From Eriocheir sinensis (lineage: Eukaryota > Arthropoda > Malacostraca > Decapoda > Varunidae): a DNA stretch of 64,000 bases. Of the stretch, positions 1 through 64,000 are shown piece by piece; position 1 is the first letter of the stretch, and each line of letters starts with the position of its first letter. The DNA is taken from NCBI RefSeq assembly GCF_024679095.1, contig NW_026111618.1, positions 251,501-315,500 of the forward strand. The letters are read 5' to 3'. The notes under the pieces are model-generated. The model ran no database searches. It saw nothing but the letters and a program-made list of their open reading frames with translations, and had not been told where the DNA came from. A program made the position numbers and the translations under genes.

Positions 1-455
1 TTTATGTTTATTTGTATATATATTTTTATATAAATTTACATTATTTTATGTGTATTTTGTACATATATTTTTTTACAAATCTACCTTATTTTATGTTTAT
101 TTTGTATGTGTAATTTTTGTATATTTATATTTATCCAAATACACATTCTTTTATTGGTATTTTGTTTATTTATTTTAATTCGAATTTACATTATTTTGTG
201 TATTTTGTATACATTTTTTTATACGTATTTACTTAATTTTAAGTGTATTTTGTATATATATTTTTATAGAAATCTACGTTTTTTTATTTGTATTCGTATA
301 TATATTTTGAAACAAATTTACATTGTTTTATATGTATTTTTGCATATCTCTTTCAATACAAATTTACCTTATTGTATGTGCATTTTGTATATTTATTTCA
401 ATGCAAATTTAAATATTTTATGTGTATTTTGGTATAGATATTTTTATAAGATTAC
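1..455 (+). repeat. Block 1: sense monomers, end of a J2 superunit
   Basis: T-rich orientation. Two or three type II/III monomers lead to P (CACATTC near 143), then A (with the AATTCGAATTTAC variant), B, C, D, E, F and G. It ends at J2 (ATAAGATTAC). The same stretch recurs almost base for base at 2,684-3,135 and 38,470-38,928. Confidence 0.8.
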
Positions 456-1700
456 AAAAATTTGAATAAAAATATATACAAAAAAAACAAAAAAATAAAT
501 TTCAATTTGTATGAAAATAGATATACAAAATACACATATAATTAGTTAAATTTGTATTTAAATACATGTACAAAATACACATAAAATAATGTAAATTTGT
601 ATGAAATGAAAACAAATTCACATAAAATTCACGTCAAAATAAATAAACAAAATATCAATAAAAGAATGTGTATTTGTATGAAAATAGATATACAAAATAC
701 ACATAAAATAGCCTAAATTTGTATCAAACTATATAAGAAAATACACAAAAATATTTTAAATTTGTATGAAAATAAATATACAAAATACACATAAAATTAG
801 GTAAATTTGTATTGAAATACATACACAAAATACACATAAAATAATGTAAATTTGAATGAAAATACATAAACAAATACACTTAAAATAATGTAAATTTGTA
901 TAAAAAAATATGTACAAAACACAAATAGAATAATGTAAAATCGTATCAAAATAAATACACAGAATATTAATAAAATAATGTAAATTTGTATGAAAATAAA
1001 GAAGCAAAATACCCATAAAATAACGCATTTTTTTTGTTTATAAAAATATATATACCAAAATACACATCAAAAAATTAAATTTGTATTAAAATAAATATAC
1101 AAAAAACACATACAATAAGGTAAATTTGTATTGAAATAGATATGCAAAATACATATAAAACAATGTAAATTTGTTTCAAAATATATATACGAATACACAT
1201 AAAATAACGTAGATTTCTATAAAAATATATATACAAAATACACATAAAATGAAGTAAATACGTATAAAAAAATGTATACAAAATACAAATAAAATAATGT
1301 AAATTCGAATCAAAATAAATAAACAAAATACCAATAAAAGAATGTGTATTTGTATAAATATAAATATACAAAATACACATAAAATAACGTAAATTTATAT
1401 AAAACTATATACAAAAATACACAGAAGTAGTTAAATTTGTATGAAAATATATACAAAATACACACAAAATAAGCTAAATTTGAATTGAAATATATATACA
1501 AAATACATGAAATAAAGTAAATTTGTATCATAATATTTATACAAATACAGATATAATAACGTAAATTTGTATGAAAATATATAAACAAAATACACATTAA
1601 ATAATGTAAATACGTATAAAATATGTACAAAATACATATAATCATGTAATTGTATCAAAATAAACAAAATACCAATAAAATAATATAAATTTGTATGAGT
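456..1700 (-). repeat. Block 2: antisense monomers with a 15-mer HOR
   Basis: A-rich orientation from J2 to J1. Begins with an A-run segment and AATTAGTTAAATTTG monomers, then a full 15-mer HOR between two GAATG landmarks (664 and 1,340; 676 bp) with a J/K hybrid monomer near 900. Type II monomers with AGCTAAATTTGAATTG follow to J1. Confidence 0.8.
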
Positions 1701-1970
1701 AAACGTGTATGTTGCATATTTTTTCAATACAAATTTATCTTATTATATACGCATTTTGTATATTAATTTAAATACAAATTTAATTATTCGATGTGTATTT
1801 TTGTATCAGTATTTTTATAAACATATGCTTTATTTGATGGGTATTTTGCATATTTATTTTCATAGAAATTTACTTTATTTTAATGATATTCTGCTCATTC
1901 ATTTTGATACGAGTTGACTTTATTCTATGTGTATTTTGTATATTTTTCATACTAGTTTACTTTATTTTAT
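1701..1970 (+). repeat. Block 3: short sense block between J1 and J8
   Basis: Six monomers starting with the E-like core TGCATATTTTTTCAATAC, then F-like (CGCATTTTGTATATTAAT), G-, H- and I-like copies. Ends where ATTTTATG joins TTTAAAATATGTAC (J8). Blocks 3 and 4 form a mini-unit of about 368 bp that recurs inverted at 15,536-15,900 and 60,771-61,130. Confidence 0.75.
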
Positions 1971-2068
1971 GTTTAAAATATGTACAAAATACACATATCA
2001 TCATGTAATTCGTATCAAAATAAATAAACAAAATACCAATAAAATAATATAAATTTGTATGAGTAAAC
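1971..2068 (-). repeat. Block 4: two antisense monomers
   Basis: Only about two A-rich monomers, with the type II marker CATGTAATTCGTATC, lying between J8 and the second J1 copy. Reverse-complement counterpart of 15,536-15,632 and 60,771-60,868. Confidence 0.72.
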
Positions 2069-3135
2069 GTGTATGTTGCATATTTTTTCAATACACATTT
2101 ACCTTATATACGTATTTTGTATATTAATTTTAATACAAATCTAATTATTCGATGTGTATTTTGTATCTGTATTTTTATAAACATCTGCTTTATTTTTGTG
2201 TATTTTGCATCTTTATTTTCATACAAATTTACATTATTTTATTGATATTCTGCTCATTCATTTTGATACGAATTGACATTATTCTATGTGTATTTTGTAT
2301 ATATTTTTCATACAAATTTACGTTATTTTATGTGTATTTGTTTATTTATTTTGACACAAATTTACAATATTTTATGGGTATTTTGTATATACATTTCAAA
2401 AGAAATTTACCTAGTTTTATGTGTATTTTGTATATCTATTTTCATACAAACTCAAATTATTTCTATGTATTTTTGTATATATTTTAATACAAATTTTAGT
2501 TATGTTATGTGTATTTTGTAAATTTATTTTCATTCAAATATATATTATTTTATTGGTGTTTTGTTGATTTATATTGATACGAATTTACATTATTTTATAT
2601 GTACTTTGTATATATATTTTTATACGCTTTTACATTATTTAATTTTTATTTTGAATATATATTTTTATACAAATTCATGGTATTTTATGTGTATTTGTAT
2701 ATATATTTTTATATAAATTTACATTATTTTATGTGTATTTTGTACATATATATTTTTACAAATCTACCTTATTTTATGTTTATTTTGTATGTGTATTTTG
2801 TATATTTATATTTATCCAAATACACATTCTTTTATTGGTATCTTGTTTATTTATTTTAATTCGAATTTACATTATTTTATGTGTATTTTGTATACATTTT
2901 TTTATACGTATTTACTTAATTTTAAGTGTATTTTGTATATATATTTTTATAGAAATCTACGTTTTTTTATTTGTATTCGTATCTATATTTTGAAACAAAT
3001 TTACATTGTTTTATATGTATTTTTGCATATCTCTTTCAGTACAAATTTACCTTATTGTATGTGCATTTTGTATATTTATTTCAATGCAAATTTAAATATT
3101 TTATGTGTATTTTGGTATATATATTTTTATAAGAT
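2069..3135 (+). repeat. Block 5: sense monomers, J1 to J2
   Basis: Starts with the E-like J1 flank and runs through F-, G-, H- and I-like monomers, then copies marked GACACAAATTTACAA, AAAAGAAATTTACC and ACGCTTTTACATT. The last 450 bp (from about 2,684) repeat the window's first 455 bp. Ends at J2 (ATAAGATTACG). Confidence 0.8.
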
Positions 3136-6500
<3,365 letters not shown>

Positions 6501-7129
6501 ACACACGTATATCTATTTCAATACAAATTTTCTTTATTGTATGTGCCTTTTGTATATTTATTTTGATGCAAATTTAATTATTTTATGTGCATTTTTGTAT
6601 ATATATTTTTAAACAAATATGCGTTATTATATGGGTATTTTGCATCTTTATTTTCATACAAATTTACATTATTTTTTTGATTGTCTGTTTATTTATTTTG
6701 ATACGATTTTACGTTATTCTGTGTATTTTGTATATATATTTTTAGACATATATACATTATTTAATGTATATTTTGTACATATATTTTATGGAAATTTACG
6801 TTATCTTATGTGTATTTGTTTATATATGTTCATACAAAGTTACATTATTTTATGTGTATTTTGTATATGTATTCCAATAAAAATTTGCGTAATTTCATTT
6901 GTATTTTGCATATCTATTTTCAAACAAATTTAAATTATTTTTGTGTATTTTTGTATTATTTTTATACAATTTTTTTTTTTTTTTGTATTTTGTATATATA
7001 TTTTCCTACACATATACATTCTTTTAGAGGAAATTTTGTTTATTTATTTTGATACGAATTTACATTATTTTATGTGTATTTTGTATATATATTTTTATAT
7101 GTATTTACATTATTTTATGTGTATTTTGT

Positions 7130-8478
<1,349 letters not shown>

Positions 8479-8499
8479 CAAGTAAACATTCTTTTATTG

Positions 8500-9730
8500 G
8501 CATTTAGTTTATTTATTTTGATACGAATTTACTTCATTTTATGTGTATTTTGTATATATATTTTATAGAAATCTACGTTATTTTATGTGTATTCGTATGT
8601 ATATTTTGAAACAAATTTACATTGTTTTATATGTATTTTGCATATCTATTTCAATACAAATTTACCTTATTGTATGTGCATTTTGTATATTTATTGTAAT
8701 ACAAATTTAAATATTTTATGTGCATTTTGGTATATATATTTTCATAAAAAATGCGTTGTTTTATGGGTATTTTGCATCTTTATTTTCATACAAATTTACA
8801 TTATTTTATTAATATTCTGTGTATTTATTTTGATACTATTTTACATTATTCTTTTTGTGTTATGTATATATTTTTTTATACATATTTACATTATTTAATG
8901 TGTATTTTCTATATATATATTTCATACAAATTTTCGTTATTTTAAGTGTATTTGTTTATATATTTTTATTCAAATTTACATTATTTTATGTGTATTTTGT
9001 ATATGTATTTCAATAGAAATTTACTTAATTCGCATCAAAATAAATAAACAAAATATCAATAAAAGAACGTGTATTTGTATGAAAATAGATATACAAAATA
9101 CACATAAAATATTGTAAATTTGTATAAAACTCTATTAAAAAAATACACAAATTTTTTTTAAATTTGTATAAAAATATATATACAAAATACACATAAAACT
9201 AGTTAAATTTCTATTGAAATACATATACAAAATACACATAAAATAATGTAAATTTGAATGAAAATATATAAACAAATACACTTAAAATAACGTAAATTTG
9301 TGTGAAATATATATAGAAAATACACATTATATAATGTAAATATGTATAAAAAAATATATACAAAACACAAATAGAATAATGTAAAATAGTATCAAAATAA
9401 ATACACAGAATATTAATAAAATAATGTAAATTTGTATGAAAATAAAGATGCAAAATACCCATAAGACAACGCATTTTTTATGAAAATATATATTACAATA
9501 AATATACCAAGTGCACATACAATAAGGTAAATTTGTATTGAGATAGATATGAAAAATACACATAAAACAATGTAAATTTGTTTCAAAATATATATACGAA
9601 TACACATAAAATAACGTAGATTTCTATAAAAATATATATACAAAATACACATAAAATGAAGTAAATACGTATAGGAAAATGTATACAAAATACACATAAA
9701 ATAATGTAAACTCGTATCAAAATAAATAAA
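8500..9730. repeat. Inverted repeat, ~510-bp arms, ~200-bp spacer
   Basis: Sense monomers A-M at about 8,500-9,010 are mirrored by antisense monomers at about 9,215-9,730. The G-H boundary ATGCGTTGTTTTATGGG at 8,751 pairs with its complement ending at 9,474, and GATACGAATTTAC near 8,520 pairs with its complement near 9,715. Both place the centre near 9,115. Confidence 0.75.
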
Positions 9731-9940
9731 CTAAATGACAAAAATAATTAAATTTGTATGAAAATAGATATACAAAAGACACATAAAATAAGCTAAATTT
9801 GAATTGAAATAAATATAGAAAATACATAAAATAATGTAAATTTGTATCAAAATATATATTCAAATACACATATATTAAAATTAATATACAAAATGCGTAT
9901 ATAATAAGGTAAATTTGTATTGAAAAAATATGCAACATGC
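9028..9940 (-). repeat. Block 8: antisense, copy of 58.6-59.6 kb
   Basis: A-rich orientation, order P, O, N, M, L, K, J, I, H, G/F, E, D, C, B, A, then type II monomers to J1. Colinear with 58,560-59,585 but with two deletions: about one monomer inside G-F near 9,495, and about 110 bp near 9,735 that removes the A-P boundary. Confidence 0.8.
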
Positions 9941-11210
9941 AACGTTTACTCATACAAATTTATATTATTTTATTGGTATTTTGTTTATTTATTTTGATAC
10001 GAATTACATGATTATATGTGTATTTTGTACATATTTTTTATACGTATTTACATTATTTAATGTGTATTTTGTTTATATATTTTCATACAAATTTACGTTA
10101 TTATATGTGTATTTGTATAAATATTTTGATACAAATTTACTTTATTTCATGTATTTTGTATATATATTTCAATTCAAATTTAGCTTATTTCGTGTGTATT
10201 TTGTATATATTTTCATTCAAATTTAATTACTTCTGTGTATTTTTGTATATAGTTTTATATAAATTTACGTTATTTTATGTGTATTTTGTATATTTATATT
10301 TATACAAATACACATTCTTTTATTGGTATTTTGTTTATTTATTTTGACACGAATTTACATTATTTTATGTGTATTTTGTATACATTTTTTTATACGTATT
10401 TACTTCATTTTATGTGTATTTTGTATATATATTTTTATAGAAATCTACGTTATTATATGTGTATTCGTATATATATTTTGAAACAAATTTACATTTTTTT
10501 TATATGTATTTTGCATATCTATTTCAATACAAATTTACCTTATTGTATGTGTTTTTTGTATATTTATTTTAATACAAATTTAATTTTTTGATGTGTATTT
10601 TGGTATATATATTTTTATAAATAAAAAAATGCGTTATTTTATGGGTATTTTGCTTCTTTATTTTCATACAAATCTACATTATTTTATTAATATTCTGTGT
10701 ATTTATTTTGATACGATTTTACATTATTCTATTTGTGTTTTGTACATATTTTTTATACAAATTTACGTTATTTTAAGTGTACTTGTTTATGTATTTTCAT
10801 TCAAATTTACATTATTTTATGTGAATTTTGTGTATGTATTTCAATACAAATTTACCTAATTTTATGTGTATTTTGTATATTTATTTTCATACAATTTTTT
10901 AAAAAAATTTTGTGTATTTTTGTATATAGTTTGATACAAATTTAGGTTATTTTATGTGTATTTTGTATATCTATTTTCATACAAATACACATTCTTTTAT
11001 TGATATTTTGTTTATTTATTTTGACGCGAATTTTATGTGAATTTGTTTTCATTTCATACAAATTTACATTATTTTATGTGTATTTTGTACATGTATTTAA
11101 ATACAAATTTAACTAATTATATGTGTATTTTATATATCTATTTTCATACAAATTGAAATTTATTTTTTTGTTTTTTTGTATATATTTTTATTCAAATTTT
11201 CGTAATCTTA
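9941..11210 (+). repeat. Block 9: sense half of superunit copy 1
   Basis: J1 in complement form (CAACGTTTACTCATAC), then type II monomers (GAATTACATGATTATATGTG, AATTTAGCTTATTTCG, TTACTTCTGTG), P at 10,311, a 15-mer HOR to the next P at 10,988 (677 bp), then A with GACGCGAATTTTATGTG, and J2 (TTTTCGTAATCTTATAAAAA). Confidence 0.82.
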
Positions 11211-11785
11211 TAAAAATATATATACCAAAATACACATAAAATATTTAAATTTGCGTTGAAATAAATAATTATACAAAATGCACATACAATAAGGTAAATT
11301 TGTATTGAAAGAGATATGTAAAAATACATATAAAACAATGTAAATTTGTTTCAAAATATATATACGAATACATATAAAAAAACGTAGATTTCTATAAAAA
11401 TATATATACAAAATACACATAAAATTAAGTAAATACGTATAAAAATGTATACAAAATACACATAAAATAATGTAAATTCAATTAAATAAATAAACAAAAT
11501 ACCAATAAAAGAATGTGTATTTGGATAAATATAAATATACAAAATACACATACAAAATAAACATAAAATAAGGTAGATTTGTAAAAATATATGTAATACA
11601 CATAAATAATGTAAATTTATATAAAAATATATATACAAATACACATAAAATACCATGAATTTGTATAAAAATATATATTCAAAATAAATATTAAATAATG
11701 TAAAAGCGTATAAAAATATATATACAAATACAGATACAAAAATACACATCGAATAATTAAATTTGTATTAAAAAAATATGCAACA
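11211..11785 (-). repeat. Block 10: antisense half of superunit copy 1
   Basis: G, F (with ATAAATAATTATAC insertion near 11,262), E, D, C, B, A, P, then monomers marked AAGGTAGATTTGTAAAAA, CCATGAATTTGTATAAAA and GTAAAAGCGTATAAAA, ending in a shortened J1 near 11,785. Confidence 0.8.
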
Positions 11786-13005
11786 TACACGTTTACTCAT
11801 ACAAATTTATATTATTTTATTGGTATTTTGTTTATTTATTTTGATACGAGTTACATGATTATATGTGTATTTTTTACATATTTTTTATACGTATTTACAT
11901 TATTTAATGTGTATTTTGTTTATATATTTTCATACAAATTTACGTTATTATATGTGTATTTGTATCAATATTTTGATACAAATTTACTTTATTTCATGTA
12001 TTTTGTATATATATTTCAATTCAAATTTAGCTTATTTTGTGTGTATTTTGTATATATTTTCATACAAATTTAATTACTTCTGTGTATTTTTGTATATAGT
12101 TTTATATAAATTTACGTTATTTTATGTGTATTTTGTATATTTATATTTATACAAATACACATTCTTTTATTGGTATTTTGTTTATTTTTTTTGATTAGAA
12201 TTTACATTATTTTATGTGTTTTTTGTATACATTTTTTTATACGTATTTACTTCATTTTCTGTGTTTTTTGTATATATATTTTTATAGAAATCTACGTTAT
12301 TTTATGTGTATTCGTATATATATTTTGAAACAAATTTACATTGTTCTATATGAATTTTGCATATCTATTTCAATACAAATTTACCTTATTGTATGTGTTT
12401 TTTGTATATTTATTTTAACACAAATTTAATTTTTTGATGTGTATTTTGGTATATATATTTTTATAAATAAAAAAATGCGTTATTTTATGGGTATTTTGCT
12501 TCTTTATTTTCATACAAATTTACATTATTTTATTAATATTCTGTGTATTTATTTTGATACGATTTTACATTATTCTATTTGTGTTTTGTACATATTTTTT
12601 TATACAAATTTACGTTATTTTAAGTGTATTTGTTTATGTATTTTCATTCAAATTTACATTATTTTATGTGTATTTTGTATATGTATTTCAATACAAATTT
12701 ACCTAATTTTATGTGTATTTTTGTATATAGTTTGATACAAATTTAGGTTATTTTATGTGTATTTTGTATATCTATTTTCATACAAATACACATTCTTTTA
12801 TTGATATTTTGTTTATTTATTTTGACGCGAATTTTATGTGAATTTGTTTTCATTTCATACAAATTTACATTATTTTATGTGTATTTTGTACATGTATTTA
12901 TATACAAATTTAACGAATTATATGTGTATTTTGTATATCTATTTTCATACAAATTGAAATTTATTTTTTTTGTTTTTTCTATATATTTTTATTCAAATTT
13001 TCGTA
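11786..13005 (+). repeat. Block 11: sense half of superunit copy 2
   Basis: Same order as block 9. The distance between P landmarks is 631 bp (12,160 to 12,791), 46 bp shorter than in copy 1, because monomer N is missing: M (CCTAATTTTATGTG) is followed directly by O (TATATAGTTTGATAC). Confidence 0.82.
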
Positions 13006-13640
13006 ATCTTATAAAAATATATATACCAAAATACACATAAAATATTTAAATTTGCATTGAAATAAATATACAAAATGCACATACAATAAGGTAAATTTGT
13101 ATTGAAAGAGATATGCAAAAATACATATAAAACAATGTAAATTTGTTTCAAAATATATATACGAATACAAAAAAAAAAAACGTAGATTTATATAAAAATA
13201 TATATACAAAATACACATAAAATTAAGTAAATACGTATAAAAAAATGTATACAAAATACACATAAAATAATGTAAATTCGAATTAAAATAAATAAACAAA
13301 ATACCAATAAAAGAATGTGTATTTGGATAAATATAAATATACAAAATACACATACAAAATAAACATAAAATAAGGTAGATTTGTAAAAAAATATATGTAC
13401 AAAATACACATAAAATAATGTAAATTTATATAAAAATATATATACAAATACACATAAAATACCATGAATTGGTATAAAAATATATATTCAAAATAAATAT
13501 TAAATAATGTAAAAGCGTAATAAAATATATATACAAATACAGATACAAAAATACACATCGAATAATTAAATTTTTATTAAAATTAATATACAAAATGCGT
13601 ATATAATAAGGTAAATTTGTATTGAACAAATATGCAACAT
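13006..13640 (-). repeat. Block 12: antisense half of superunit copy 2
   Basis: From J2 to J1. Same monomer order as block 10, with an A-run replacing the usual ACACATAAAATAACG of monomer D near 13,170. J1 here reads GCAACATACAATTTTACTC, a diverged copy. Confidence 0.8.
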
Positions 13641-14897
13641 ACAATTTTACTCATACAAATTTATATTATTTTATTGGTATTTTGTTTATTTATTTTGATA
13701 CGAATTACATGATTATATGTATTTTTACATATTTGATACGTATTTACATTATTTAATGTGTATTTTGTTTATATATTTTCATACAAATTTACGTTATTAT
13801 ATGTGTATTTGTATCAATATTTTGATACAAATTTACTTTATTTCATGTATTTTGTATATATATTTCAATTCAAATTTAGCTTATTTTGTGTGCATTTTGT
13901 ATATATTTTCATACAAATTTAATTTCTTCTGTGTATTTTTGTATATAGTTTTATATAAATTTACGTTATTTTATGTGTATTTTGTATATTTATATTTATA
14001 CAAATACACATTCTTTTATTGGTATTTTGTTTATTTATTTTGATACGAATTTACATTATTTTATGTGTTTTTTGTATACATTTTTTTATACGTATTTACT
14101 TCATTTTCTGTGTATTTTGTATGTATATTTTTATAGAAATCTACGTTATTTTATGTGTATTCGTATATATATTTTGAACCAAATTTACATTGTTCTATAT
14201 GTATTTTGCATATCTATTTCAATACAAATTTACCTTATTGTATGTGTTTTTTGTATATTTATTTTAACACAAATTTAATTTTTTGATGTGTATTTTGGTA
14301 TATATATTTTTAAAATAAAAAAAATGCGTTATTTTATGGGTATTTTGCTTCTTTATTTTCATACAAATTTACATTATTTTATTAATATTCTGTGTATTTA
14401 TTTTGATACGATTTTACATTATTCTATTTGTGTTTTGTACATATTTTTTTATACAAATTTACGTTATTTTAGGTGTATTTGTTTATGTATTTTCATTCAA
14501 ATTTACATTATTTTATGTGTATTTTGTGTATGTATTTCAATACAAATTTACCTAATTTTATGTATTTTGTATATTTATTTTCATACAAATTTAAAATATT
14601 TTTGTGTATTTTTGTATATAGTTTGATACAAATTTAGGTTATTTTATGTGTATTTTCTATATCTATTTTCATACAAATACACATTCTTTTATTGATATTT
14701 TGTTTATTTATTTTGACGCGAATTTTATGTGAATTTGTTTTCATTTCATACAAATTTACATTATTTGATGTGTATTTTGTACATGTATTTAAATACAAAT
14801 TTAACTAATTATATGTGTATTTTGTATATCTATTTTCATACAAATTGAAATTTATTTTTTTTGTTTTTTTCTATATATTTTTATTCAAATTATCGTA
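13641..14897 (+). repeat. Block 13: sense half of superunit copy 3
   Basis: Type II monomers, then a 15-mer HOR between P landmarks at 14,009 and 14,682 (673 bp), with N present and a J/K hybrid near 14,445. Ends at J2, here with ATTATCGTAATCTTATTAAA. Confidence 0.82.
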
Positions 14898-15535
14898 ATC
14901 TTATTAAAATATATATACCAAAATACACATAAGATATTTAAATTTGCATTGAAATAAATATACAAAATGCACATACAATAAGGTAAATTTGTATTGAAAG
15001 AGATATGCAAAAATACATATAAAACAATGTAAATTTGTTTCAAAATATATATACGAATACAAATAAAAAAACGTAGATTTCTATAAAAATATATATACAA
15101 AATACACTTAAAATTAAATAAATACGTATAAAAAAAAAAAAATACAAAATACACATAAAATAATGTAAATTCGAATTAAAATAAATAAACAAAATACCAA
15201 TAAAAGAATGTGTATTTGGATAAATATAAATATACAAAATACACATACAAAATAAACATAAAATAAGGTAGATTTGTAAAAAAAATATATGTACAAAATA
15301 CACATAAAATAATGTAAATTTATATAAAAATATATATACAAATACACATAAAATACCATGAATTTGTATAAAAATATATATTCAAAATAAATATTAAATA
15401 ATGTAAAAGAGTATAAAAATATATATACAAATACAGATTCAAAAATACACATCGAATAATTAAATTTGTATTAAAATTAATATACAAAATGCGTATATAA
15501 TAAGGTAAATTTGTATTGAAAAAATATGCAACATA
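14898..15535 (-). repeat. Block 14: antisense half of superunit copy 3
   Basis: Same order as blocks 10 and 12, with a longer A-run in monomer B near 15,135. Ends in a clean J1 (GCAACATACACGTTTACTC). Confidence 0.8.
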
Positions 15536-15632
15536 CACGTTTACTCATACAAATTTATATTATTTTATTGGTATTTTGTTTATTTATTTTGATACGAATT
15601 ACATGATTATATGTGTATTTTGTACATATTTT
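15536..15632 (+). repeat. Block 15: two sense monomers between J1 and J8
   Basis: A-like and GAATTACATGATTATATGTG monomers only, then J8 (ACATATTTTTAAACATAAAA). First part of a mini-unit of about 365 bp shared with 1,701-2,068 (inverted) and 60,771-61,130. Confidence 0.74.
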
Positions 15633-15900
15633 TAAACATAAAATAACGTAAATTTGTATGAAAAATATCTACAAAATACACATAGAATAATGTCAATTCG
15701 TATCAAAATGAATGAGCAGAATATCAATAAAATAATGTTAATTTGTATGAAAATAAAGATGCAAAATACACAAATAATAAAGCATATGTTTATAAAAATA
15801 CAGATACAAAAATGCACATCGAATAATTAAATTTGTATTAAAATTAATATACAAAATGCGTATATAATAAGGTAAATTTGTATTGAAAAAATATGCAACA
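15633..15900 (-). repeat. Block 16: six antisense monomers, J8 to J1
   Basis: Includes the marker GAATGAGCAGAATATC and the F-like ATGCGTATATAATAAGG, ending in J1 with a single change (CGTTTAGTCATAC). Near-identical to 60,869-61,130. Confidence 0.75.
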
Positions 15901-26640: not shown

Positions 26641-30872
<4,232 letters not shown>

Positions 30873-32078: not shown

Positions 32079-32214
<136 letters not shown>

Positions 32215-32838: not shown

Positions 32839-35467
<2,629 letters not shown>

Positions 35468-40170: not shown

Positions 40171-40785
40171 ACGTGTATGTTGCGTATTTTTCAATACAAA
40201 TTTACATTATTATATACATTTGTATATTAATTTTAATACAAATTTAATTATTCGATGTGTATTTTTGTATCTGTATTGTATATATATTTTTATACGCTTT
40301 TACATTATTTAATATTTATTTTGAATATATATTTTTATACAAACTCATGGTATTTTATGTGTATTTGTATATATATTTTATATAAATTTATTTATGTGTA
40401 TTTTATATATATTTTTACAAATCTACCTTATTTTATGTTTATTTTGTATGTGTATTTTGTATATTTATCCAAATACACATTCTTTTATTGGTATTTTGTT
40501 TATTTATTTTAATTCGAATTTACATTATTTTATGTGTATTTTGTATACATTTTTTTATACGTATTTACTTATTTTTGTATATATATTTTATAGAAATCTA
40601 CGTTTTTTATTTGTATTCGTATATATATTTTGAAACAAATTTACATTGTTTTATATGTATTTTGCATATCTCTTTCAATACAAATTTACCTTATTATGTG
40701 CATTTTGTATATTTATTTCAATGCAAATTTAAATATTTTATGTGTATTTTGGTATCTATATTTTTATATGATTACGAAAATTTGA
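40171..40785 (+). repeat. Block 33: sense half of reverse superunit copy 2
   Basis: Same order as block 31 but about 35 bp shorter, through many 1-6 bp losses in homopolymers and AT cores (for example TGTATTTTATATATATTTTTAC near 40,395 lacks bases present near 38,515). Confidence 0.8.
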
Positions 40786-48368: not shown

Positions 48369-48468
48369 TGTCATGTGTATTCCTATATATATTTTGAAAC
48401 AAATTTACATTGTTTATATGTATTTTGCATATCTATTTCTGTGTATTCTGTTTTTATTTTTGTTATAC
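48369..48468 (+). repeat. Block 37: D-E fragment before J3
   Basis: About 100 bp: monomer D (TTGAAACAAATTTAC), a shortened E and the J3 sequence TATTTTTGTTATACATAG. It matches the end of block 17 near 16,830-16,922. Confidence 0.72.
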
Positions 48469-50633
<2,165 letters not shown>

Positions 50634-50765
50634 TATTTTGTATATCTATTTTATACAAATGTACGTTATTTTATATGAATTTGTTTTCATTTCATACAAA
50701 TTTACATTATTTTATATGTATATTGTAAATGTATTCAAATACAAATTTAACTAATTACATATTTT
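50634..50765 (+). repeat. Block 39: three sense monomers
   Basis: A K-like monomer (TATACAAATGTACG), one with TTTTCATTTCATACAAATTT, and one with ATTCAAATACAAATTTAAC. This set is shared with 24,380-24,490 and 43,255-43,375. Enters at AAAATTATTTTGTATATC and leaves at ATTTTTATAAAAATAATA. Confidence 0.72.
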
Positions 50766-51850
50766 TATAAAAATAATATACAAAAATACACATAGATTAA
50801 TCAAATTTGTATTAAAATTAATATACAAAATGCACATACAATAAGGTAAATTTGTATTGAAAAAATATGCAAAATACACATAAAACAATGTAAATTTGTT
50901 TCAAAATATATATTCGAATACACATAAAATAACGCAGATTTCTATAGAAATATATATACAAAATACACTTGAAATACTGTAAATACGTATAAAAATATAT
51001 ATACAAAATACACATTAAATAATGTTAATTCGTGTCAAAATAAATAAACAAAATATCATGAAAAGAATGTGTATTTTTATGAAAATAGATATACAAAATA
51101 CACATAAAATAACCTAAATTTGTATAAAACTATATACACAAATACACAAAAATAATTTAAACATGTATGAAAATAAATATACAAAAAACATATAAAAATA
51201 GGTAGATTTGTATTGAAATACATATACAAAATACACATAAAGTAATGTAAATTTGAATGAAAATATATAAACATATAGACTTAAAATAACGTAAATTTGT
51301 ATCAAATATATATACAAAAAAAACATTAAATAATGTAAATATGTATAAAAAAATATATACAAAACACAAATAAAATAATGTAAAATCGTATCAAAATAAA
51401 TACAGAAAATATTAATAAAATAATGTAGATTTCTATGAAAATTAAGATGCAAAATACCCATAAAATAACGGATTTTTTATAAAAATATATATACGAAAAA
51501 ACATAAAATATTTGATTTTGTATTAAAATAAATAGATATACAAAATACACATAAAATAAGCTAAATTTGAATTGAAATATATATACAAAATACATCAAAT
51601 AATGTAAATTTGTATCAAAATACCTATACAAATACACATATAATAACGTAAATTTGTATAAAAATATATAAACAAAATACACATTAAATAATGTAAATAC
51701 GTATAAAAAATGTAAAAAATACACAAATAATCATGTAATTCGTATCAAAATAAATAGACAAAATACCAATAAAATAATGTAAAATTCTATGAGAAAACAT
51801 ATACAAAATACACATAAATAACGCAAATATCAATAAAAATATATATAATA
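50766..51850 (-). repeat. Block 40: antisense, ends at J5
   Basis: F, E, D, C, B, A with ATATCATGAAAAGAATG, P-G, type II, then a type III terminal monomer and J5. From about 51,000 it is colinear with 55,060-55,895. Confidence 0.78.
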
Positions 51851-53692
<1,842 letters not shown>

Positions 53693-55895
53693 ATAGAGTA
53701 AATTTCTATGAAAATATATATTCAAAATACATATAAAATTATGTAAATAAGTATAAAAATATATATATCAAATACACCTAAAAAAATGAAAATTCGTATC
53801 AAAATAAATAAACAAAATTCCGATAAAAGAACGTATATTTGTAGGAAAATAAATATACAAAATACACATAAAATTACGAAAATTTGAATAAAAATATATA
53901 CAAAAAAAAAAAATATCAATTTGTATGAAAATAGATATACAAAATACACATATAATTAGTTAAATTTGTATTTAAATACATGTACAAAATACACATAAAA
54001 TAATGTAAATTTGTATGAAATGAAAACAAATTCACATAAAATAACGTACATTTGTATAAAATAGATATACAAAATATACATAGAATAATGTAAAATCGTA
54101 TCAAAATAAATACACAGAATATCAATAAAATAATGTAATTTTGTATGAAAATAAAGATGCAAAATACCCATAAAATAAAGCCTATTTTTTTTTAAATATA
54201 TATACAAGAATACACATAGAATAATTAAATTTGTATTAAAAAAATATACAAAATGCACGTACAATAAGGGAAATTTGTATTGAAAAAATATACAAAATGC
54301 GCATAAAACAATGTATATTTGTTTCAAAATATATATACGAATACACATAAAATAGCGTATATTTCTAAAGAAATATATATAAAAAATACATATGAAATGA
54401 CGTAAATACGTATAAAAATATATATACACAATACACATTAAATAATGTAAATTCGCATCAAAATAAATAAACAATATATCAATAAAAGAATGTGTATTTG
54501 TATGAAAATAGATATACAAAATACTCATAAAATAACCTAAGTTTGTATAAAACTCTATTACAAAAAATACACGAAAATAATTTAAATTTGTATAAAAATA
54601 TATATACAAAATACACATAAAACTAGTTAAATTTCTATTGAAATACATATACAAAATACATATAAAATAATGTAAATTTGAATGAAAATATATAAACAAA
54701 TACACTTAAAATAACGTAAATTTGTATGAAATATATATAGAAAATTCACATTAAATAATGTAAATATGTATAAAAAAATATATACAAAACACAAATAGAA
54801 TAATGTAAAATAGTATCAAAATAAATACACAGAATATTAATAAAATAATGTAAATTTGTATGAAAATAAAGATGCAAAATACAAATAAAACAACGCATTT
54901 TTTATGAAAATATATATACCAAAATACACATAAAATATTTAAATTTGTATTACAATAAATATACAAAATGCACATACAGTAAGGTAAATTTGTATTGAAA
55001 TAGATATGCAAAATACACTTAAAATAATGTAAATACGTATAAAAATATATATACAAAAATTCACATTAAATAATGTTAATTCGTGTCAAAATAAATAAAC
55101 AAAATATCATGAAAAGAATGTGTATTTGTATGAAAATAGATATACAAAATACACATAAAATAACCTTAATTTGTATAAAACTATATACAAAAATACACAA
55201 AAATAATTTAAACTTGTATGAAAATAAATATACAAAAAACATATAAGAATAGGTAGATTTGTATTGAAATACATATACAAAATACACATAAAATAATGTA
55301 AATTTGAATGAAAATATATAAACATATAGACTTAAAATAACGTAAATTTGTGTCAAATATATATACAAAAAAAACATTAAATAATGTAAATATGTATAAA
55401 AAAATATATACAAAACACAAATAAAATAATGTAAAATCGTATCAAAATAAATACAGAAAATATTAATAAAATAATGTAGATTTCTATGAAAATTAAGATG
55501 CAAAATACCCATAAAATAACGGATTTTTTATAAAAATATATATACGAAAAAAAATAAAATATTTGATTTTGTATTAAAATAAATAGATATACAAAATACA
55601 CATCAAATAAGCTAAATTTGAATTGAAATATATACAAAATACATAAAATAATGTAAATTTGTATCAAAATACCTATACAAATACACATATAATAACGTAA
55701 ATTTGTATAAAAATATATAAACAAAATACACATTAAATAATGTAAATACGTATAAAAAAAATGTAAAAAATACACAATTAATCATGTAATTCGTATCAAA
55801 ATAAATAGACAAAATACCAATAAAATAATGTAAATTTCTATGAGAAAACATATACAAAATACACATAAATAACGCAAATATCAATAAAAATATAT
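53693..55895 (-). repeat. Block 42: antisense, J4 to J5
   Basis: Unswitched J2-type monomer (ATTACGAAAATTTGAATAAA near 53,875), I-A with P near 54,490, O-C, then ATATCATGAAAAGAATG near 55,108, P-G, type II and J5. A 249-codon frame at 53,956-54,705 is a monomer echo. Confidence 0.8.
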
Positions 55896-57785
55896 AATAT
55901 AATATATTTTTATACATATTTAAAATATTTAATGTATATTTTGTATATATATATTTTATCCAAATTTACGTGATTTTATATGTATTTGTTTATATATTTT
56001 CATACAAATTTACATTATTTTATGTGAGTTTTGTATATGTATCTCAATACAAATTTGCCTAACTTCATGAGTATTTTGCATATCTATTTTCAAACAAATT
56101 TAAATTATTTTTGTGTATATTTGTATATATTTTATATAAATTTTAGTTATTTTATTTTTTATATATATATTTTACTAAAAATATACTTTATTTTATTTGA
56201 ATTTTTTTTATTTAATTTTTTAAGAATTTACATTATTTTATATGTATTTTGTATATATATTCTACTTATTTAAACTATTTTATGTGTATTATATATATTA
56301 ATTTTCATAACAATTTACGTTATTTTATTGTGTGTATTCGTATATATTTTGAAACATTTTATACAAATTCATGTTATTTTATGTGTATTTGTATATATAT
56401 TTTCATACAAATTTATATTATTTTATGTGTATTCTTACATATATTTTATTACCAATTTACCTTATTTTATGTTTATTTTGTATATTTATTTCATTCAGTT
56501 TTAAATTATTTAATGTGTATATTTGTATTTGTATTTAGGTTATTTTATGTGTTTTCTATATATATTTTCATCCAAAATTACATTATTTTATTGTTATTTT
56601 CTTAATTTAACTCGATACGAATTTAGATTATTTCATAGGTATTTTGTATACATATTTTTATACTCATTTACATTATCTAATGTGTGTTTTGTATATATTT
56701 TTTTATGCAAACTAGTTTTATGTTTATTTTTGTACATATATTTTTATAGAAACTTAAAACGTTATTTTATGTGTATTTTGTATATGTTTTCTCATACAAA
56801 TTTATATTATTTAATTAGTTTTTTGTTTATTTACTTTGATAAGAATGACTTGATTATTGGTGTATTTTGTAAATATTTTTTTATACATATTTACATTACT
56901 TAATGTGTATTTTGTTTATATATTTTTTTTACAAATATACGTTATTATATGTGTATTTGTTAAAAATATTTTGAAACGAATTTACTTTATTTTATGTATT
57001 TTGTATATATATTTCAATTCAAATTTAGCTTATTTTGTGTGTATTTTGTATATCTATTTTCATGCAAATTTAATTACTTCTGTGTATTTTTGTATATAGT
57101 TTTATACAAATTTACGTTATGTTATGTGCATTTTGTATATTTATATTTATACAAATACACATTCTCTTATTGGTATTTTGTTTATTTATATTTTGCATAC
57201 ATTTTTTATTCGTATTTACTTAATTTCATTTGTATTTTGTATATATATATATTTATAGATATCTACGTTATTTTATGTGTATTCGTACATATATTTTGAA
57301 ACAAATTCACATTGTTTTATATGTTTTTTGCATATCTATTTCAATACAAATTTACCTTATTGTATGTGCATTTTGTATATTTATTTTAATACAAATTCAA
57401 ATATTTTATGTGTATTTTGGTATATATAATTTTATAAAAAATGCGTTATTTTATAGGTATTTTGCATCTTAGTTTTCATACAAATGTACATTATTTTCTT
57501 AATATTCTGTGTATATATTTTGATACGATTTTATATTATACTATTTGTGTTTTGTATATATTTTTTTATACATATTTTCATTATTTAATGTGTATTTTTT
57601 TATACATATTTTATACAAATTAACGTCATTTTAAGTGTATTTGTTTATATAATTTCATTCAAATTTACATTATTTTAAGTGTATTTTGTATATGTATTTC
57701 AATACAAATTTACGTAATTTTATGTGTATTTTGTATATTTATTTTCATACAAATTTAAATTATTTTGTGTTTTTTTGTATATACA
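55896..57785 (+). repeat. Block 43: sense J5-J4 unit, copy 2
   Basis: Same order as block 41, including type III monomers at about 56,330-56,820. Offset is about 4,200 before the (AT)n position and about 4,093 after it, which fits the absence of the 106-bp tract. An extra J-, K- and M-like run lies at 55,896-56,080. Confidence 0.82.
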
Positions 57786-59585
57786 TATAGAGTAAATTTC
57801 TATGAAAATATATATTCAAAATACATATATATATAATTATGTAAATAAGTATAAAAATATATATATCAAATACACCTAAAAAAATGAAAATTCGTATCAA
57901 AATAAATAAACAAAATTCCGATAAAAGAACGTATATTTGTAGGAAAATAAATATACAAAATACACATAAAATTACGAAAATTTGAATAAAAATATATACA
58001 AAAAACAAACAAAAAATTTCAATTTGTATGAAAATAGATATACAAAATACACATATAATTAGTTAAAATTGTATTTAAATACATGTACAAAATACACATA
58101 AATTAATGTAAATTTGTTTGAAATGAAAACAAAGTCACATTAAATAACGTACATTTGTATAAAATAGAAATACAAAATATACATAGAATAATGTAAAATC
58201 GTATCAAAATAAATACACAGAATATCAATAAAATAATGTAATTTTGTATGAAAATAAAGATGCAAAATACCCATAAAATAAAGCCTATTTTTTTAAAAAT
58301 ACATATACAAGAATACACATAGAATAATTAAATTTGTATTAAAAAAATATACAAAATGCACGTACAATAAGGGAAATTTGTATTGAAAAAATATACAAAA
58401 TGCACAAAAAACAATGTATATTTGTTTCAAAATATATATACGAATACACATAAAATAGCGTATATTTCTAAAGAAATATATATATAAAATACACATGAAA
58501 TGACGTAAATACGTATAAAAATATATATACACAATACACATTAAATAATGTAAATTCGCATCAAAATAAATAAACAAAATATCAATAAAAGAATGTGTAT
58601 TTGTATGAAAACAGATATACAAAATACACATAAAATATTGTAAATTTGTATAAAACTCTAAAAAAAAATACACAAAAATAATTTAAATTTGTATAAAAAT
58701 ATATATACAAAATACACATAAAAATAGTTAAATTTCTATTGAAATACATATACAAAATACACATAAAATAATGTAAATTTGAATGAAAATATATAAACAA
58801 ATACACTTAAAATAACGTAAATTTGTATGAAATATATATAGAAAATACACATTAAATAATGTAAATATGTATAAAAAAATATATACAAAACACAAATAGA
58901 ATAATGTAAAATAGTATCAAAATAAATACACAGAATATTAATAAAATAATGTAAATTTGTATGAAAATAAAGATGCAAAATACCCATAAAACAACGCATT
59001 TTTTATGAAAATATATATACCAAAATACACATAAAATATTTAAATTTGTATTACAATAAATATACAAAATGCACATACAATAAGGTAAATTTGTATTGAA
59101 ATAGATATGCAAAATACACATAAAACAATGTAAATTTGTTTCAAAATATATATACGAATACACATAAAATAACGTAGATTTCTATAAAAATATATATACA
59201 AAATACACATAAAATGAAGTAAATACGTATAAGAAAATGTATACAAAATACACATAAAATAATGTAAATTCGTATCAAAATAAATAAACAAAATACCAAT
59301 AAAAGAATGTGTATTTGTATAAATATAAATATACAAAATACACACAAAATAACGTAAAATTGTATAAAACTATATACAAAAATAAACAAAAATAATTAAA
59401 TTTGCATAAAAATAGATATACAAAAGACACATAAAATTAGCTAAATTTGAATTGAAATAAAAATAGAAAATACATAAAATAATGTAAATTTGTATCAAAA
59501 TATATATTCAAATACACATATATTAAAATTAATATACAAAATGCATATATAATAAGGTAAATGTATTGAAAAAATATGCAACATA
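57786..59585 (-). repeat. Block 44: antisense, J4 to J1, reference 16-mer HOR
   Basis: J4, the unswitched J2-type monomer near 57,975, I-A, P, then the clearest complete HOR in the window, between GAATG at 58,591 and 59,305 (714 bp). All 16 monomers P through A can be read there in order. Type II monomers then lead to J1. Confidence 0.85.
58591..59305 (-). repeat. Reference 16-monomer higher-order repeat unit
   Basis: Read left to right on + as P, O, N, M, L, K, J, I, H, G, F, E, D, C, B, A, each 44-46 bp. J (TATATACAAAACACAAATAG) and K (TGAAATATATATAGAAAAT) are separate monomers here, unlike in the 15-mer form. Another 16-mer is at 34,632-35,345. Confidence 0.88.
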
Positions 59586-59912
59586 CACGTTTACTCATAC
59601 AAATTTATATTATTTTATTGGTATTTTGTTTATTTATTTTGATACGAATTACATGATTATATGTGTATTTTGGACATATTTTTTATACGTATTTACATTA
59701 TTTAATGTGTATTTTGTTTATATATTTTCATACAAATTTACGTTATTATATGTGTATTTGTATAAATATTTTGATACAAATTTACTTTATTTCATGTATT
59801 TTGTATATATATTTCAATTCAAATTTAGCTTATTTTGTGTGTATTTTGTATATATTTTCATACAAATTTAATTACTTCTGTGTATTTTTGTATATAGCTT
59901 TATATAAATATT
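59586..59912 (+). repeat. Block 45: sense, type II monomers only
   Basis: J1, then A-like, GAATTACATGATTATATGTG, B-like, K-like, TAGCTTATTTTGTGTG and TAATTACTTCTGTG monomers. Ends at a unique switch inside TTTATATAAATATTTTATA, where TTATATAA repeats on both sides. Confidence 0.78.
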
Positions 59913-60770
59913 TTATATAAATACGTATAAAAAAATGTATACAAAATACACATAAAATAATGTAAATTCGAATTAAAATAAATAAACAAAATACCAATAA
60001 AAGAATGTGTATTCGGATAGATATAAATATACAAAATACACATACAAAATAAACATAAAATAAGGTAGATTTGTAAAAAAATATATGTACAAAATACACA
60101 TAAAATAATGTAAATTTATATAAAAATATATATACAAATACACATAAAATACAATGAATTTGTATAAAAATATATATTCAAAATAAATATTAAATAATGT
60201 AAAAGCGTATAAAAATATATATACAAAGTACATATAAAATAATGTAAATTCGTATCAATATAAATCAACAAAACACCAATAAAATAATATATATTTGAAT
60301 GAAAATAAATTTACAAAATACACATAACATAACTAAAATTTGTATTAAAATATATAAAAAAATACATAGAAATAATTTGAGTTTGAATGAAAATAGATAT
60401 ACAAAATACACATAAGACTAAGTAAATTTCTTTTGAAATGTATATACAAAATCCCCATTAAATATTGTAAATTTGTGTCAAAATATATAAACAAATACAC
60501 ATAAAATAACGTAAATTTGTATGAAAAATATATACAAAATACACATAGAATAATGTCAATTCGTATCAAAATGAATGAGCAGAATATCAATAAAATAATG
60601 TAAATTTGTATGAAAATAAAGATGCAAAATACCCAAAAAATAAAGCATATGTTTATATAAATACAGATACAAAAATACACATCGAATAATTAAATTTGTA
60701 TTAAAATTAATATACAAAATGCATATATAATAAGGTAAATTTGTATTGAAAAAAAATGCAACATACACAT
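59913..60770 (-). repeat. Block 46: antisense, ends at J1
   Basis: B, A, P, then AAGGTAGATTTG, CAATGAATTTGTATA, ATATCAATATAAATCAAC-like, TCTTTTGAAATGTATA and GAATGAGCAGAATATC monomers, H, G, F, E and J1. The reverse complement of 2,069-2,900. Confidence 0.78.
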
Positions 60771-60868
60771 TTACTCATACAAATTTATATTATTTTATTG
60801 GTATTTTATTTATTTATTTTGATACGAATTACATGATTATATGTGTATTTTTTACATATTTTTAAACG
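60771..60868 (+). repeat. Block 47: two sense monomers between J1 and J8
   Basis: Near-identical to block 15: an A-like monomer, then GAATTACATGATTATATGTG and ATATTTTTAAACGTAAAA. Confidence 0.74.
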
Positions 60869-61130
60869 TAAAATAACGTAAATTTGTATGAAAAATATAT
60901 ACAAAATACACATAGAATAATGTCAATTCGTATCAAAATGAATGAGCAGAATATCAATAAAATAATGTAAATTTGTATGAAAATAAATTTGCAAAATACC
61001 CAAAAAATACAACATATGTTTATAAAAATACAGATACAAAAATACACATCGAATAATTAAATTTGTATTAAAATTAATATACAAAGTGCGTATATAATAA
61101 GGTAAATTTGTAATGAAAAAATATGCAACA
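60869..61130 (-). repeat. Block 48: antisense, J8 to J1
   Basis: Near-identical to block 16, with the GAATGAGCAGAATATC marker and the F-like GTGCGTATATAATAAGG. Completes the second tandem J1-to-J1 mini-unit in this region. Confidence 0.74.
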
Positions 61131-61165
61131 TACACGTTTACTCTTACAAATTTATATTTATATTA
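61131..61165 (+). repeat. Block 49: single partial sense monomer
   Basis: About 35 bp after J1: CTCTTACAAATTTATATTTA, then an immediate return to A-rich orientation at ATATTATATTTTGCAAAA. Possibly a remnant of a longer block. Confidence 0.6.
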
Positions 61166-61370
61166 TATTTTGCAAAAATACATATAAAACAATGTAAATT
61201 TGTTTCAAAATATATATACGAATACACATAAAATAACGAAGATTTCTATAAAAATATATATACAAAATACACATAAAATTAAGTAAATACGTATAAAAAA
61301 ATGTAAACAAAATACACGTAAAATAATGTAAATTCGAAACAAAATAAATAAACAAAATACCAATAAAAGA
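61166..61370 (-). repeat. Block 50: five antisense monomers
   Basis: E, D, C, B and A (ATTCGAAACAAAATAAAT), then a break immediately after CAATAAAAGAAT. The break is at the same position of the A-P boundary as the switch near 17,860. Confidence 0.72.
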
Positions 61371-62235
61371 ATTTTTTTATACATATTTACATTATTTAAT
61401 GTGTTTTTTGTATATATATTTGATACATATTTACGTTATTTAAGTTATTTTATGTGTATTTGTTTATATATTTTGACACAAATTTACAATATTTTATGGG
61501 AATTTTGTATATATATTTCAAAAGAAATTTACCTAGTTTTATATGTATTTTGAATATCTATTTTCATACAAACTCAAATTATTTTTATGTTTTTTTGTAC
61601 ATATTTCAATACAAGTTTTAGTTATGTTATGTGTATTTTGTAAATCTATTTTCATTCAAATATATATTATTTTATTGGTATTTTGTTGATTTATATTGAT
61701 ACGAATTTACATTATTTTATATGTACTTTGTATATATATTTTTATACGCATTTACATTATTTAATATTTATTTTGAATATATAATTTTATACAAATTCAT
61801 GGTATTTTATGTGTATTTGTATATATATTTTCATATAAATTTACATTATTTTATGTGTATTTTGTACATATATTTCATTAAAAAATTGCCTTATTTTATG
61901 TTTATTTTGTATGTATATTGTGTAGATTTATATTTATACAAATACACATTCCTTTAATGGTATTTTGTTTATTTATTTTGTTTCGAATTTACATTATTTT
62001 ATGTGTATTTTGTTTACATTTTTTTATACGTATATACTTAATTTTATGTGTATTTTGTATATATATTTTTATAGAAATCTACCTTATTTTATGTGTATTC
62101 GTATATATATTTTGAAACAAATTTACATTGTTTTATATGTATTTTTGCATATCTCTTTCAATAGAAGTTTACCTTATTGTATGTGCATTTTGAATATTTA
62201 TTTCAATACAAATTTAAATATTTTATGTGTATACA
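61371..62235 (+). repeat. Block 51: sense, copy of 18,050-18,912
   Basis: Opens mid-J (TTTTTTTATACATATTTAC) and follows block 19 monomer for monomer, including TTTGATACATATTTACG and TCATACAAACTCAAATT, to J7 (GTGTATACATGTACAAA). Confidence 0.83.
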
Positions 62236-64000
62236 TGTACAAAAAATACATAAAATAATGTAGATTTGTATGAAATGAAAACAAATACATTTTATATAAA
62301 ATATATATACAAAATACACATAGAATAATGTAAAATCATATTAAAATAAATACACAGAATATCAATAAATTAATGTAAATTTGTATGAAAATAAAGATGC
62401 AAAATACCCATAAAATAAAGCATATTTTCATAAAAAATACATATACAAAAATACACATAGATTAATCAAATTTGTAATAAAATTAATATACAAAATGCAC
62501 ATACAATAAGGTAAATTTGTATTGATAAAATATGCAAAATACACATAAAACAATGTAAATTTGTTTCAAAATATATATACAAATACACATAAAATAACGC
62601 AGATTTCTATAGAAATATATATACAAAATACACTTGAAATAATGTAAATACGTATAAAAATATATATACAAAATACACATTAAATAATGTTAATTCGTGT
62701 CAAAATAAATAAACAAAATATCATGAAAAGAATGTGTATTTGTATGAAAATAGATATACAAAATACACATAAAATAACCTAAATTTGTAAAAAACTATAA
62801 ACAAAAATACACAAAAATAATTTAAACTTGTATGAAAATAAATATACAAAAAACATATAAAATTAGGTAAATTTGTATTGAAATACATATACAAAATACA
62901 CATAAAATAATGTAAATTTGAATAAAAATATATAAACATATAGACTTAAAATAACGTAAATTTGTATCAAATATATATACAAAAAACACATTAAATAATG
63001 TAAATATGTATAAAAAAATATATGCAAAACACAAATAAAATAATGTAAAATCGTATCAAAATAAATACAGAAAATATTAATAAAATAATGTAAATTTGTA
63101 TGAAAATTAAGATGCAAAATACCCATAAAATAATGCATTTTTTTATAAAAATATATATACGAAAAAACATAGAATATTTGATTTTGTATTAAAATAAATA
63201 GATATACAAAATACACATAAAATAAGCTAAATTAAATGAAAAATATATACAAAATACACATAGAATAATGTAAAATCGTATCAAAATAAATACACAGAAT
63301 ATCAATAAAATAATGTAATTTTGTATGAAAATAAAGATGCAAAATACCCATAAAATAAAGCATATTTTTTTCAAAATAAATATACAAAAATACACATAGA
63401 ATAATTAAATTTGTGTTAAAATTAATATACAAAATGCACGTACAATAAGGTACATTTGTATTGAAAAAATATACAAAATGCACTTTAAAGCGTAAATTTG
63501 TTTAAAAATCTATATACGAATACACATAAAATAACGTAGATTTCTATAGAAATATATATACAAAATACACATGAAATGATGTAAATACGTATACAAATAT
63601 ATATATACAAAATACACATTAAATCATTTAAATTATCTTCAAAATAAATAAACAAAATATCAATAAAAGAATGTGTATTTGTATGAAAATAGATATACAA
63701 AATACTCATAAAATAACCTAAGTTTGTATAAAACTATATACAAAAATACACAAAAATAATTTAAATTTGTATGAAAATAAATATACAAATTACACATAAA
63801 ATTAGGTAAATTTGTATTGAAATACATATACAAAATACACATAAAATAATGGAAATTTGAATTAAAATATATAAACATAAACACTTAAAATAACGTAAAT
63901 TTGTATCAAATATATATACAAAATACTAATTAAATAATGTAAATATGTATAAAAATTTTTATACAAAACACAAATAGAATAATGTAAAATCGTGTCAAAA
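62236..64000 (-). repeat. Block 52: antisense, copy of 18,913-20,480, runs off the end
   Basis: Colinear with block 20 at an offset near 43,322 until about 63,080, then with about 223 bp extra (an additional G, type II and I-G run near 63,130-63,370) before matching 19,940-20,450 again at an offset near 43,545. The array continues past the window edge. Confidence 0.83.

Follow-up and report, generated by a model that had tools for sequence, protein, structure and literature searches.

Most orientation switches in a 45-bp satellite array of Eriocheir sinensis are copied inverted joins from a limited set

A 64,000-nucleotide stretch of the Eriocheir sinensis genome (hereafter the window; G000:C1392:251501-315500; the assembly totals 1.765 Gb over 2,158 contigs) consists of a single AT-rich satellite whose orientation switches 49-51 times. 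The junctions at these switches fall into a limited number of families, copies within the window are direct and inverted in about equal numbers, and the same junctions are present on other contigs. Most of the switches derive by copying from a limited set of joins, which recur elsewhere in the genome, and the array therefore seems to grow by the pasting of kilobase pieces in either orientation. In standard models of satellite evolution, direct copies undergo unequal crossing over, and the array stays in one orientation. The reading that we favour, with a probability of about 60%, is that this is an old satellite that has been reshaped by the copying of patches of 0.3-9 kb, with little orientation preference and with inverted joins carried along.

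Frequent orientation switches within one satellite

The orientation of the satellite along the window was determined using two segmentations. A two-state k-mer model, trained on the window itself, placed 51 switches when the penalty was loosest (4) and 49 under each of three stricter ones (6, 8 and 12), with each of the 50 blocks at penalty 6 scoring at least 39. A wrap-around monomer alignment (monomer-phase Viterbi path), in which blips shorter than 20 bp were merged, gave 57 raw changes and 51 after merging, 26 of them from T-rich to A-rich and 25 from A-rich to T-rich. Block lengths in this second segmentation ranged from 39 to 4,728 bp (median 1,084; mean 1,231) and showed no departure from an exponential distribution (n=50, P 0.14). 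These data confirm the frequent orientation switching described in a first-pass annotation of this DNA, which had counted about 51 switches, one every ~1.25 kb, between blocks of 35 bp to over 4.7 kb in one satellite. The lengths given there agree with ours to within a few bases, and the region is full of inverted repeats, as had been stated, with 1,516 inverted and 1,663 direct self-alignments of at least 300 bp. The further claim that such switching is unusual stood in part: the density of switches is above that in the few papers compared, yet the switches had been counted as if each were an event, whereas about 21 junction types cover all 51.

The whole window is built from one monomer of ~45 bp, present in 1,378 full copies, and as a long head-to-tail array of that monomer it is satellite DNA. 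Overall GC content is 16%, uniform at 14-19% per kb. Tandem Repeats Finder returned a 45-bp period on alternating strands (150 of 329 rows, reaching ~31 kb), and a 35-base core of the monomer matched 213 times at no more than 3 mismatches, against 0.00 expected from shuffles. Neighbouring monomers were no more alike than random ones (73.7% versus 73.9% identity), so that nothing points to recent unequal crossing over at the scale of the monomer. Over lags 1-20 the highest mean monomer identity was 75.8%, at lag 8, with no clear period; the array is not organised as higher-order repeats, at most 3.6% of monomer pairs reaching 90% identity at any of these lags.

A limited number of junction families

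Junctions were clustered on 100 bp of sequence to each side, within junction type and in both orientations. The number of families was 13, 20, 21, 22 and 24 at thresholds of 0.78, 0.80, 0.82, 0.85 and 0.90, respectively, and ranged from 18 to 31 over flanks of 60-250 bp and thresholds of 0.80-0.90. At 0.82, the threshold of the family list in Table 1, eight multi-copy families (of 13, 7, 4, 4, 3, 3, 2 and 2 copies) held 38 of the 51 junctions, and 13 junctions were single. Since these 38 have flanks in common with other copies in the window, they look like copies and not new events. Pairs of junctions were found in both relative orientations in the six families of at least three copies, and in direct orientation in the two families of two. 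In F1, the largest family, 36 pairs were direct and 42 inverted, and the 12 other copies were 82-94% identical to the first. By eye, ~20 bases at the F1 join (around GAGTAAACGTGTATGTTGCATA) look unlike the monomer, and most of the 13 copies carry a similar stretch.

As another source of the switches, we considered local inversions occurring repeatedly and independently at hotspots within the monomer. Junction registers clustered weakly among the 10 T-to-A families (P 0.04), as this account would have it, but they did not cluster among the 11 A-to-T families (P 0.69), and a fixed monomer register for the junctions was rejected on these values as too weak. No turned-back paralogue at 90% identity or above was seen for 17 blocks, and the common flanks of 38 of the 51 junctions also argue against independent events; we regard hotspot inversions as very improbable.

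Two larger inverted structures were observed near junctions. A palindrome-like inverted self-match (34783-38909; 4 kb at 80%) has its centre 13 bp from junction 36833 of family F3, and an inverted duplication (4423-5833 versus 7907-6509; 95.8%) flanks junction 6506.

Kilobase patches present in both orientations

When the window was cut into 300-bp tiles, 176 of 213 tiles had a partner of at least 90% identity elsewhere in the window. These partners were inverted for 91 tiles and direct for 85, where random partners would be inverted in 48.7% of cases, and their collinear runs were likewise divided (62 inverted, 61 direct). Copies extend across junctions. In an array of three successive units (9940..15540; Table 1), each unit holds a T-rich and an A-rich block, and the inverted join therefore belongs to the repeated unit; a copy of this array lies in reverse orientation at 36830..41890. 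Segments that contain no switch are equally alike, with 2,335 bp at 94.6% as one example.

The ends of these copies were also assessed. The share of alignments ending at junctions was 89% when pooled (99% at the 13 single junctions and 84% at the 38 multi-copy ones), compared with 25% at random interior points. Among 57 interior points at which same-orientation alignments stopped, 35 lay within 60 bp of one of 78 jumps in monomer register, which indicates that many same-orientation joins disregard that register.

Recurrence of the junctions across the genome

Two probes from the window were compared with the assembly. The first (2000-2600), over junction 2066 of F1, was found at full or nearly full length with 96-100% identity in all 40 places scored, out of 3,962 first-look candidates, and the second (50480-50910), over junctions 50633 and 50760, at full length with 98-100% identity in all 40 scored out of 4,085. 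In both cases the 40 places include the window and lie on 34 contigs, and those matched by the second probe include at least six multi-megabase contigs (C1, C2, C7, C17, C26 and C1181). One match to the second probe, at G000:C1289:303905-304335, is 100% identical; it may stem from a recent duplication or represent the other haplotype.

The sampled DNA from other contigs came to 149,724 bases (~135 kb without overlaps), nearly all of which matched or adjoined the matches of the two probes. Within it, 42 of the 51 window junctions recurred at 90% identity or above over at least 178 of 200 bases, and 40 at 95% or above, a share that is biased upwards because the DNA was picked via the two probes. 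Of the 13 window-single junctions, six (9027, 17867, 21018, 35467, 50633 and 50760) were among those recurring at 90% or above, the recurrences of the last two coming partly from loci fetched through the probe that spans them. Nine junctions had no copy at this level in the ~135 kb (6506, 11792, 32300, 48370, 51855, 59917, 61135, 61174 and 61371).

Seven regions on five contigs, together 224 kb with the window included, had 0.35-1.05 switches per kb and mean blocks of 0.9-2.7 kb, the window being second highest at 0.77 switches per kb. Their 140 junctions formed 34 families at a threshold of 0.85, of which 20 were confined to one contig, and 70 of the 91 junctions outside the window fell in a family present within it. 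Stretches of four other contigs proved to be mosaics of pieces of contig C1392 at 92% identity or above (45 direct, 34 inverted), covering 34.3 of 40, 31.9 of 40, 18.5 of 20 and 16.0 of 20 kb, respectively. The longest such piece measured 9,030 bp at 98.5% identity and held six junctions.

The satellite lies internally on the 45-Mb contig C1, where samples at 12.964 and 13.034-13.074 Mb were satellite and those at 12.864 and 13.164 Mb, with seven others, were not. On C1392 itself it was present in samples from the start to 401 kb, and absent from one near the end of which one third is N. Of 18 samples on other contigs, one was clearly satellite, one was a different AT-rich sequence, one was nearly all N and 15 were ordinary. 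The stretch G000:C1700:20000-21199, which is AT-rich (24% GC), resembles the satellite only in part.

These data bear on whether the switches might be products of assembly or amplification, such as fold-back chimeras or mis-scaffolding. Satellites are hard to assemble, and the two arms of junction 6506 are 98.7% alike, the most of all 51. Fold-back, however, predicts arms that are nearly identical, and only one of the 51 junctions reached 97% and 13 reached 90%; the median over junctions was 0.867, where 60 random comparisons had a median of 0.81, a 90th percentile of 0.917 and a maximum of 0.98. Because the same joins recur with divergence in the window (82-94% within F1), and recur again across many other contigs that include at least six of multi-megabase size, an artefact is, judged from the assembled sequence, very unlikely.

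A further possibility is that broken or circular pieces of the array were amplified outside the chromosome, by rolling-circle replication, and reinserted in random orientation. The near 1:1 orientation of the copies is consistent with such a process, as is the local tandem triplet of the 1.85-kb unit with its joins. On the other hand, few such local tandem runs are present in the window, and the pieces that it has in common with other contigs mostly lie in different surroundings. On balance, we think reinsertion of this kind unlikely.

Conservation of the joins

The recurring families could also have been kept by selection, with the inverted joins acting through hairpins or cruciforms to shape (peri)centromeric chromatin. 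Consistent with this idea, each of the two probes detected the same joins at 96-100% identity in all 40 places scored, the window among them. Furthermore, the uniformity of the alignment columns over the 13 copies of F1 was 0.94-0.99 around the join and dropped to 0.74-0.90 at greater distance from it, and six F1 copies, one of which is not a co-duplicate, showed the same uniformity. When monomer stretches were folded as single-stranded DNA, the consensus dimer (z -2.6) and one of two real stretches (z -2.8) folded better than shuffles.

By contrast, folding of the second real stretch did not stand out from shuffles (z -0.9), 40 of 200 of which did as well. In the four F1 copies that share more than 1 kb on one side, the join was no more alike than the shared flank: identity was 0.96-0.98 in the flank, 0.97 and 0.92 in the 50 bp to either side of the join, and, beyond the join, 0.93 at 50-100 bp and then 0.73-0.79 where the shared copies end. 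The join is therefore not more conserved than the DNA copied along with it, and a specially conserved F1 core is unsupported once copies with shared flanks are compared. Also speaking against selection are the equally high identity of segments that hold no switch, such as the 2,335-bp example above, the block lengths, which show no departure from an exponential distribution, and the monomer itself, which is no more self-complementary than shuffles. At its best rotation the monomer matched its own reverse complement at 26 of 45 positions (shuffles averaged 25.2; P 0.50), and a quasi-palindromic monomer was rejected as the cause of the switches on these grounds. Taken together, these comparisons make selection for the joins quite unlikely.

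Proposed formation and spread of inverted joins

We infer that rare joining or template switching between opposite strands produced the inverted joins, and that patches bearing them were then copied. Each new join would go back to a single event in which a DNA end, broken or stalled, either joined a copy of the array in opposite orientation or was primed on it, with little or no homology. Break-induced replication with template switching and end joining of broken segments are candidate routes. Larger patches that already held a join may later have been copied many times, patches of ~0.3-9 kb being taken either from elsewhere in the array or from a different array in this genome. On this view, the copying of patches without regard to orientation, in an array rich in AT, would leave the dense inversions as a side effect.

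Several observations weigh against this reading. Tile partners of at least 95% identity lay at a median distance of 23 kb when inverted and 4 kb when direct, so copying is not orientation-blind at every distance. In the 224 kb sampled, 17 of the 34 junction families were seen once, and the set of joins is thus not closed in that sample. None of the 17 tested blocks shorter than 700 bp had a block-free or a turned-back copy at 90% identity or above; the best block-free copy reached 89.6% (for the 39-bp block) and the best turned-back copy 85.0%, random joins not having been run as a control, and the ancestral state is therefore not clearly seen. A very similar pattern would result from ectopic gene conversion or from reinserted circles.

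Microhomology at the joins is slightly above chance, and the evidence for it is weak. Over 17 families the mean overlap was 2.6 bases, compared with 1.04 at random joins; dropping one outlier of 13 lowers it to 1.9 (P 0.009). The values were picked by hand, one per family, with parents chosen by best score. F2 was entered as 1, the value of most of its copies (its first copy has 0), and the set leaves out F1, in which the two copies with a value had ties of 20 and 24 bases, and three single junctions without parents. Both kinds of parent were hit for 65% of junctions and for 67% of random points, so the search is not specific to junctions.

More tentatively, and with less likelihood than patch copying as such, the evolving unit of this satellite may be the orientation-blind kilobase patch, neither the monomer nor a fixed higher-order repeat, with a limited vocabulary of inverted joins (34 families across the 224 kb, of which 17 were seen once) circulating through arrays genome-wide. 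Were this doubtful proposal true, it would describe a turnover regime with inversion as frequent as direct duplication, one that can be dated and counted through its junctions.

Other features of the array

The window contains ten (TA)n runs of 30-156 bp, counted from 20 bp upward, at 4602-4693, 7643-7726, 8317-8472, 27173-27284, 31962-32047, 32088-32209, 34481-34572, 50251-50332, 50335-50364 and 53056-53159. As break sites these runs were rejected, their median distance to a junction (585 bp) being no nearer than random (414 bp).

A coding role was also considered and rejected. The window has 81 open frames of at least 100 amino acids, and those with a 15-residue repeat lie mostly on the T-rich strand. 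As the 45-base period equals 15 codons, long frames with such a repeat can arise without coding, and three frames (288, 249 and 182 amino acids) had no Pfam match. There were no Rfam matches at gathering score and no tRNAs in the window. Searches of sequence collections returned no exact 35-mer in viral contigs and no exact 30-mer in genome contigs, and no match of a 4-kb piece to plasmids or of a 5.7-kb piece to phages.

Table 1 Features of the window. Positions are those of the window; family and single-junction rows are based on clustering at 0.82.
Feature	Positions	Strand	Details
Whole window	1..64000		~45-bp AT-rich satellite; consensus (A-rich strand) AAATTTGTATAAAAATATATATACAAAATACACATAAAATAATGT; 52 blocks alternating in orientation
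F1, A-to-T, 13 copies	1602..1802		junctions 1702, 2066, 9945, 11792, 13637, 15540, 15907, 23348, 38277, 40170, 41890, 59590, 60770
F2, T-to-A, 7 copies	356..556		junctions 456, 3138, 11201, 13002, 14891, 38911, 40775
F3, T-to-A, 4 copies	16820..17020		junctions 16920, 21949, 36833, 48468
F4, T-to-A, 4 copies	24661..24861		junctions 24761, 43642, 53686, 57780
F5, T-to-A, 3 copies	1872..2072		junctions 1972, 15635, 60868
F6, A-to-T, 3 copies at 0.82	26537..26737		junctions 26637, 51855, 55897; 51855 lost at 0.85
F7, T-to-A, 2 copies	18812..19012		junctions 18912, 62232
F8, T-to-A, 2 copies	30771..30971		junctions 30871, 32837
13 window-single junctions	6406..61471		6506, 9027, 17867, 21018, 32300, 35467, 48370, 50633, 50760, 59917, 61135, 61174, 61371
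Three successive 1.85-1.9-kb units	9940..15540		per unit, one block of ~1.25 kb (T-rich) and one of ~0.6 kb (A-rich)
Reverse-oriented copy of the 9940..15540 array	36830..41890		4 junctions within 3,039 bp at 95%; ~82% over the whole stretch
Longest one-orientation block	43643..48370	+	4,728 bp; part matches 28409-30727 inverted at 94.6%
Inverted block, 127 bp	50634..50760	-	probe across both its junctions: 98-100% in 39 other scored places
Longest pure (TA)n run within the satellite	8317..8472		one of 10 runs

Comparison with known satellite systems

Near orientation-blind copying, together with the amplification of inverted joins, suggests that turnover in this array is driven mainly by break repair and template switching, and the joins offer countable markers of such events. 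In yeast, microhomology-mediated template switching has been proposed for inverted templated insertions at DNA breaks, including insertions from distant places (PMC11724301). As presented in the sections of that study compared here, the yeast system is experimental and its local fold-back events are mostly of 5-34 bp, whereas the patches described above are kilobases long and their mechanism is inferred.

In the heterochromatin of Cuscuta europaea, the satellite CUS-TR24 is accompanied by simple-repeat expansions, segmental duplications and inversions, and AT-rich fragile sites have been suggested (PMC8091179). The present array likewise has simple-repeat expansions within it, namely the ten (TA)n runs of at least 20 bp. 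According to the portions of that report drawn on, the neighbourhood of CUS-TR24 has a prevailing orientation (40-45% same, 10-15% opposite) and is broken up by LINEs; unlike this prevalence of same-orientation neighbours, the orientation of copies in the window is near 1:1.

The macro-dyads of TmSat1 and TmSat2 in Tribolium madens are kilobase-long inverted subarrays with few types of inversion site genome-wide (Veseljak et al. 2026, PMC13081366), INV_1a being present in 2,044 copies at 98.9% and INV_1b in 3,486 at 98.2% (PMC13081366). Passages of the same work state that macro-dyad symmetries are documented exclusively in Tribolium, and propose that inverted subarrays and conserved inversion sites shape (peri)centromeric chromatin (PMC13081366). 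The present results bear on whether such inverted satellite architecture is selected, as in that proposal, or a by-product. As in Tribolium, changes of orientation within the array give kilobase-long inverted subarrays, and types of inversion site recur genome-wide at high similarity, but here 17 of 34 families were seen once. Going by the parts of the Tribolium account compared, its arrays predominantly have two subarrays each and are made of ~110-bp subunits of two intermingled satellites, whereas the 64-kb window is divided into 52 blocks and holds one satellite, with a 45-bp monomer, and the 224 kb sampled contain 34 junction families. A further difference from Tribolium is that no recent homogenisation of monomers was detectable here. 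The portions of PMC7004042, PMC9180572 and PMC13427858 that were compared held no closer parallel, and nothing closer was found in print in a search confined to the open-access literature. The array is best described as a genome-wide satellite patchwork built on copies of inverted joins from a limited set; with macro-dyad arrays it has inverted subarrays and recurrent joins in common, but not the plan of two subarrays.

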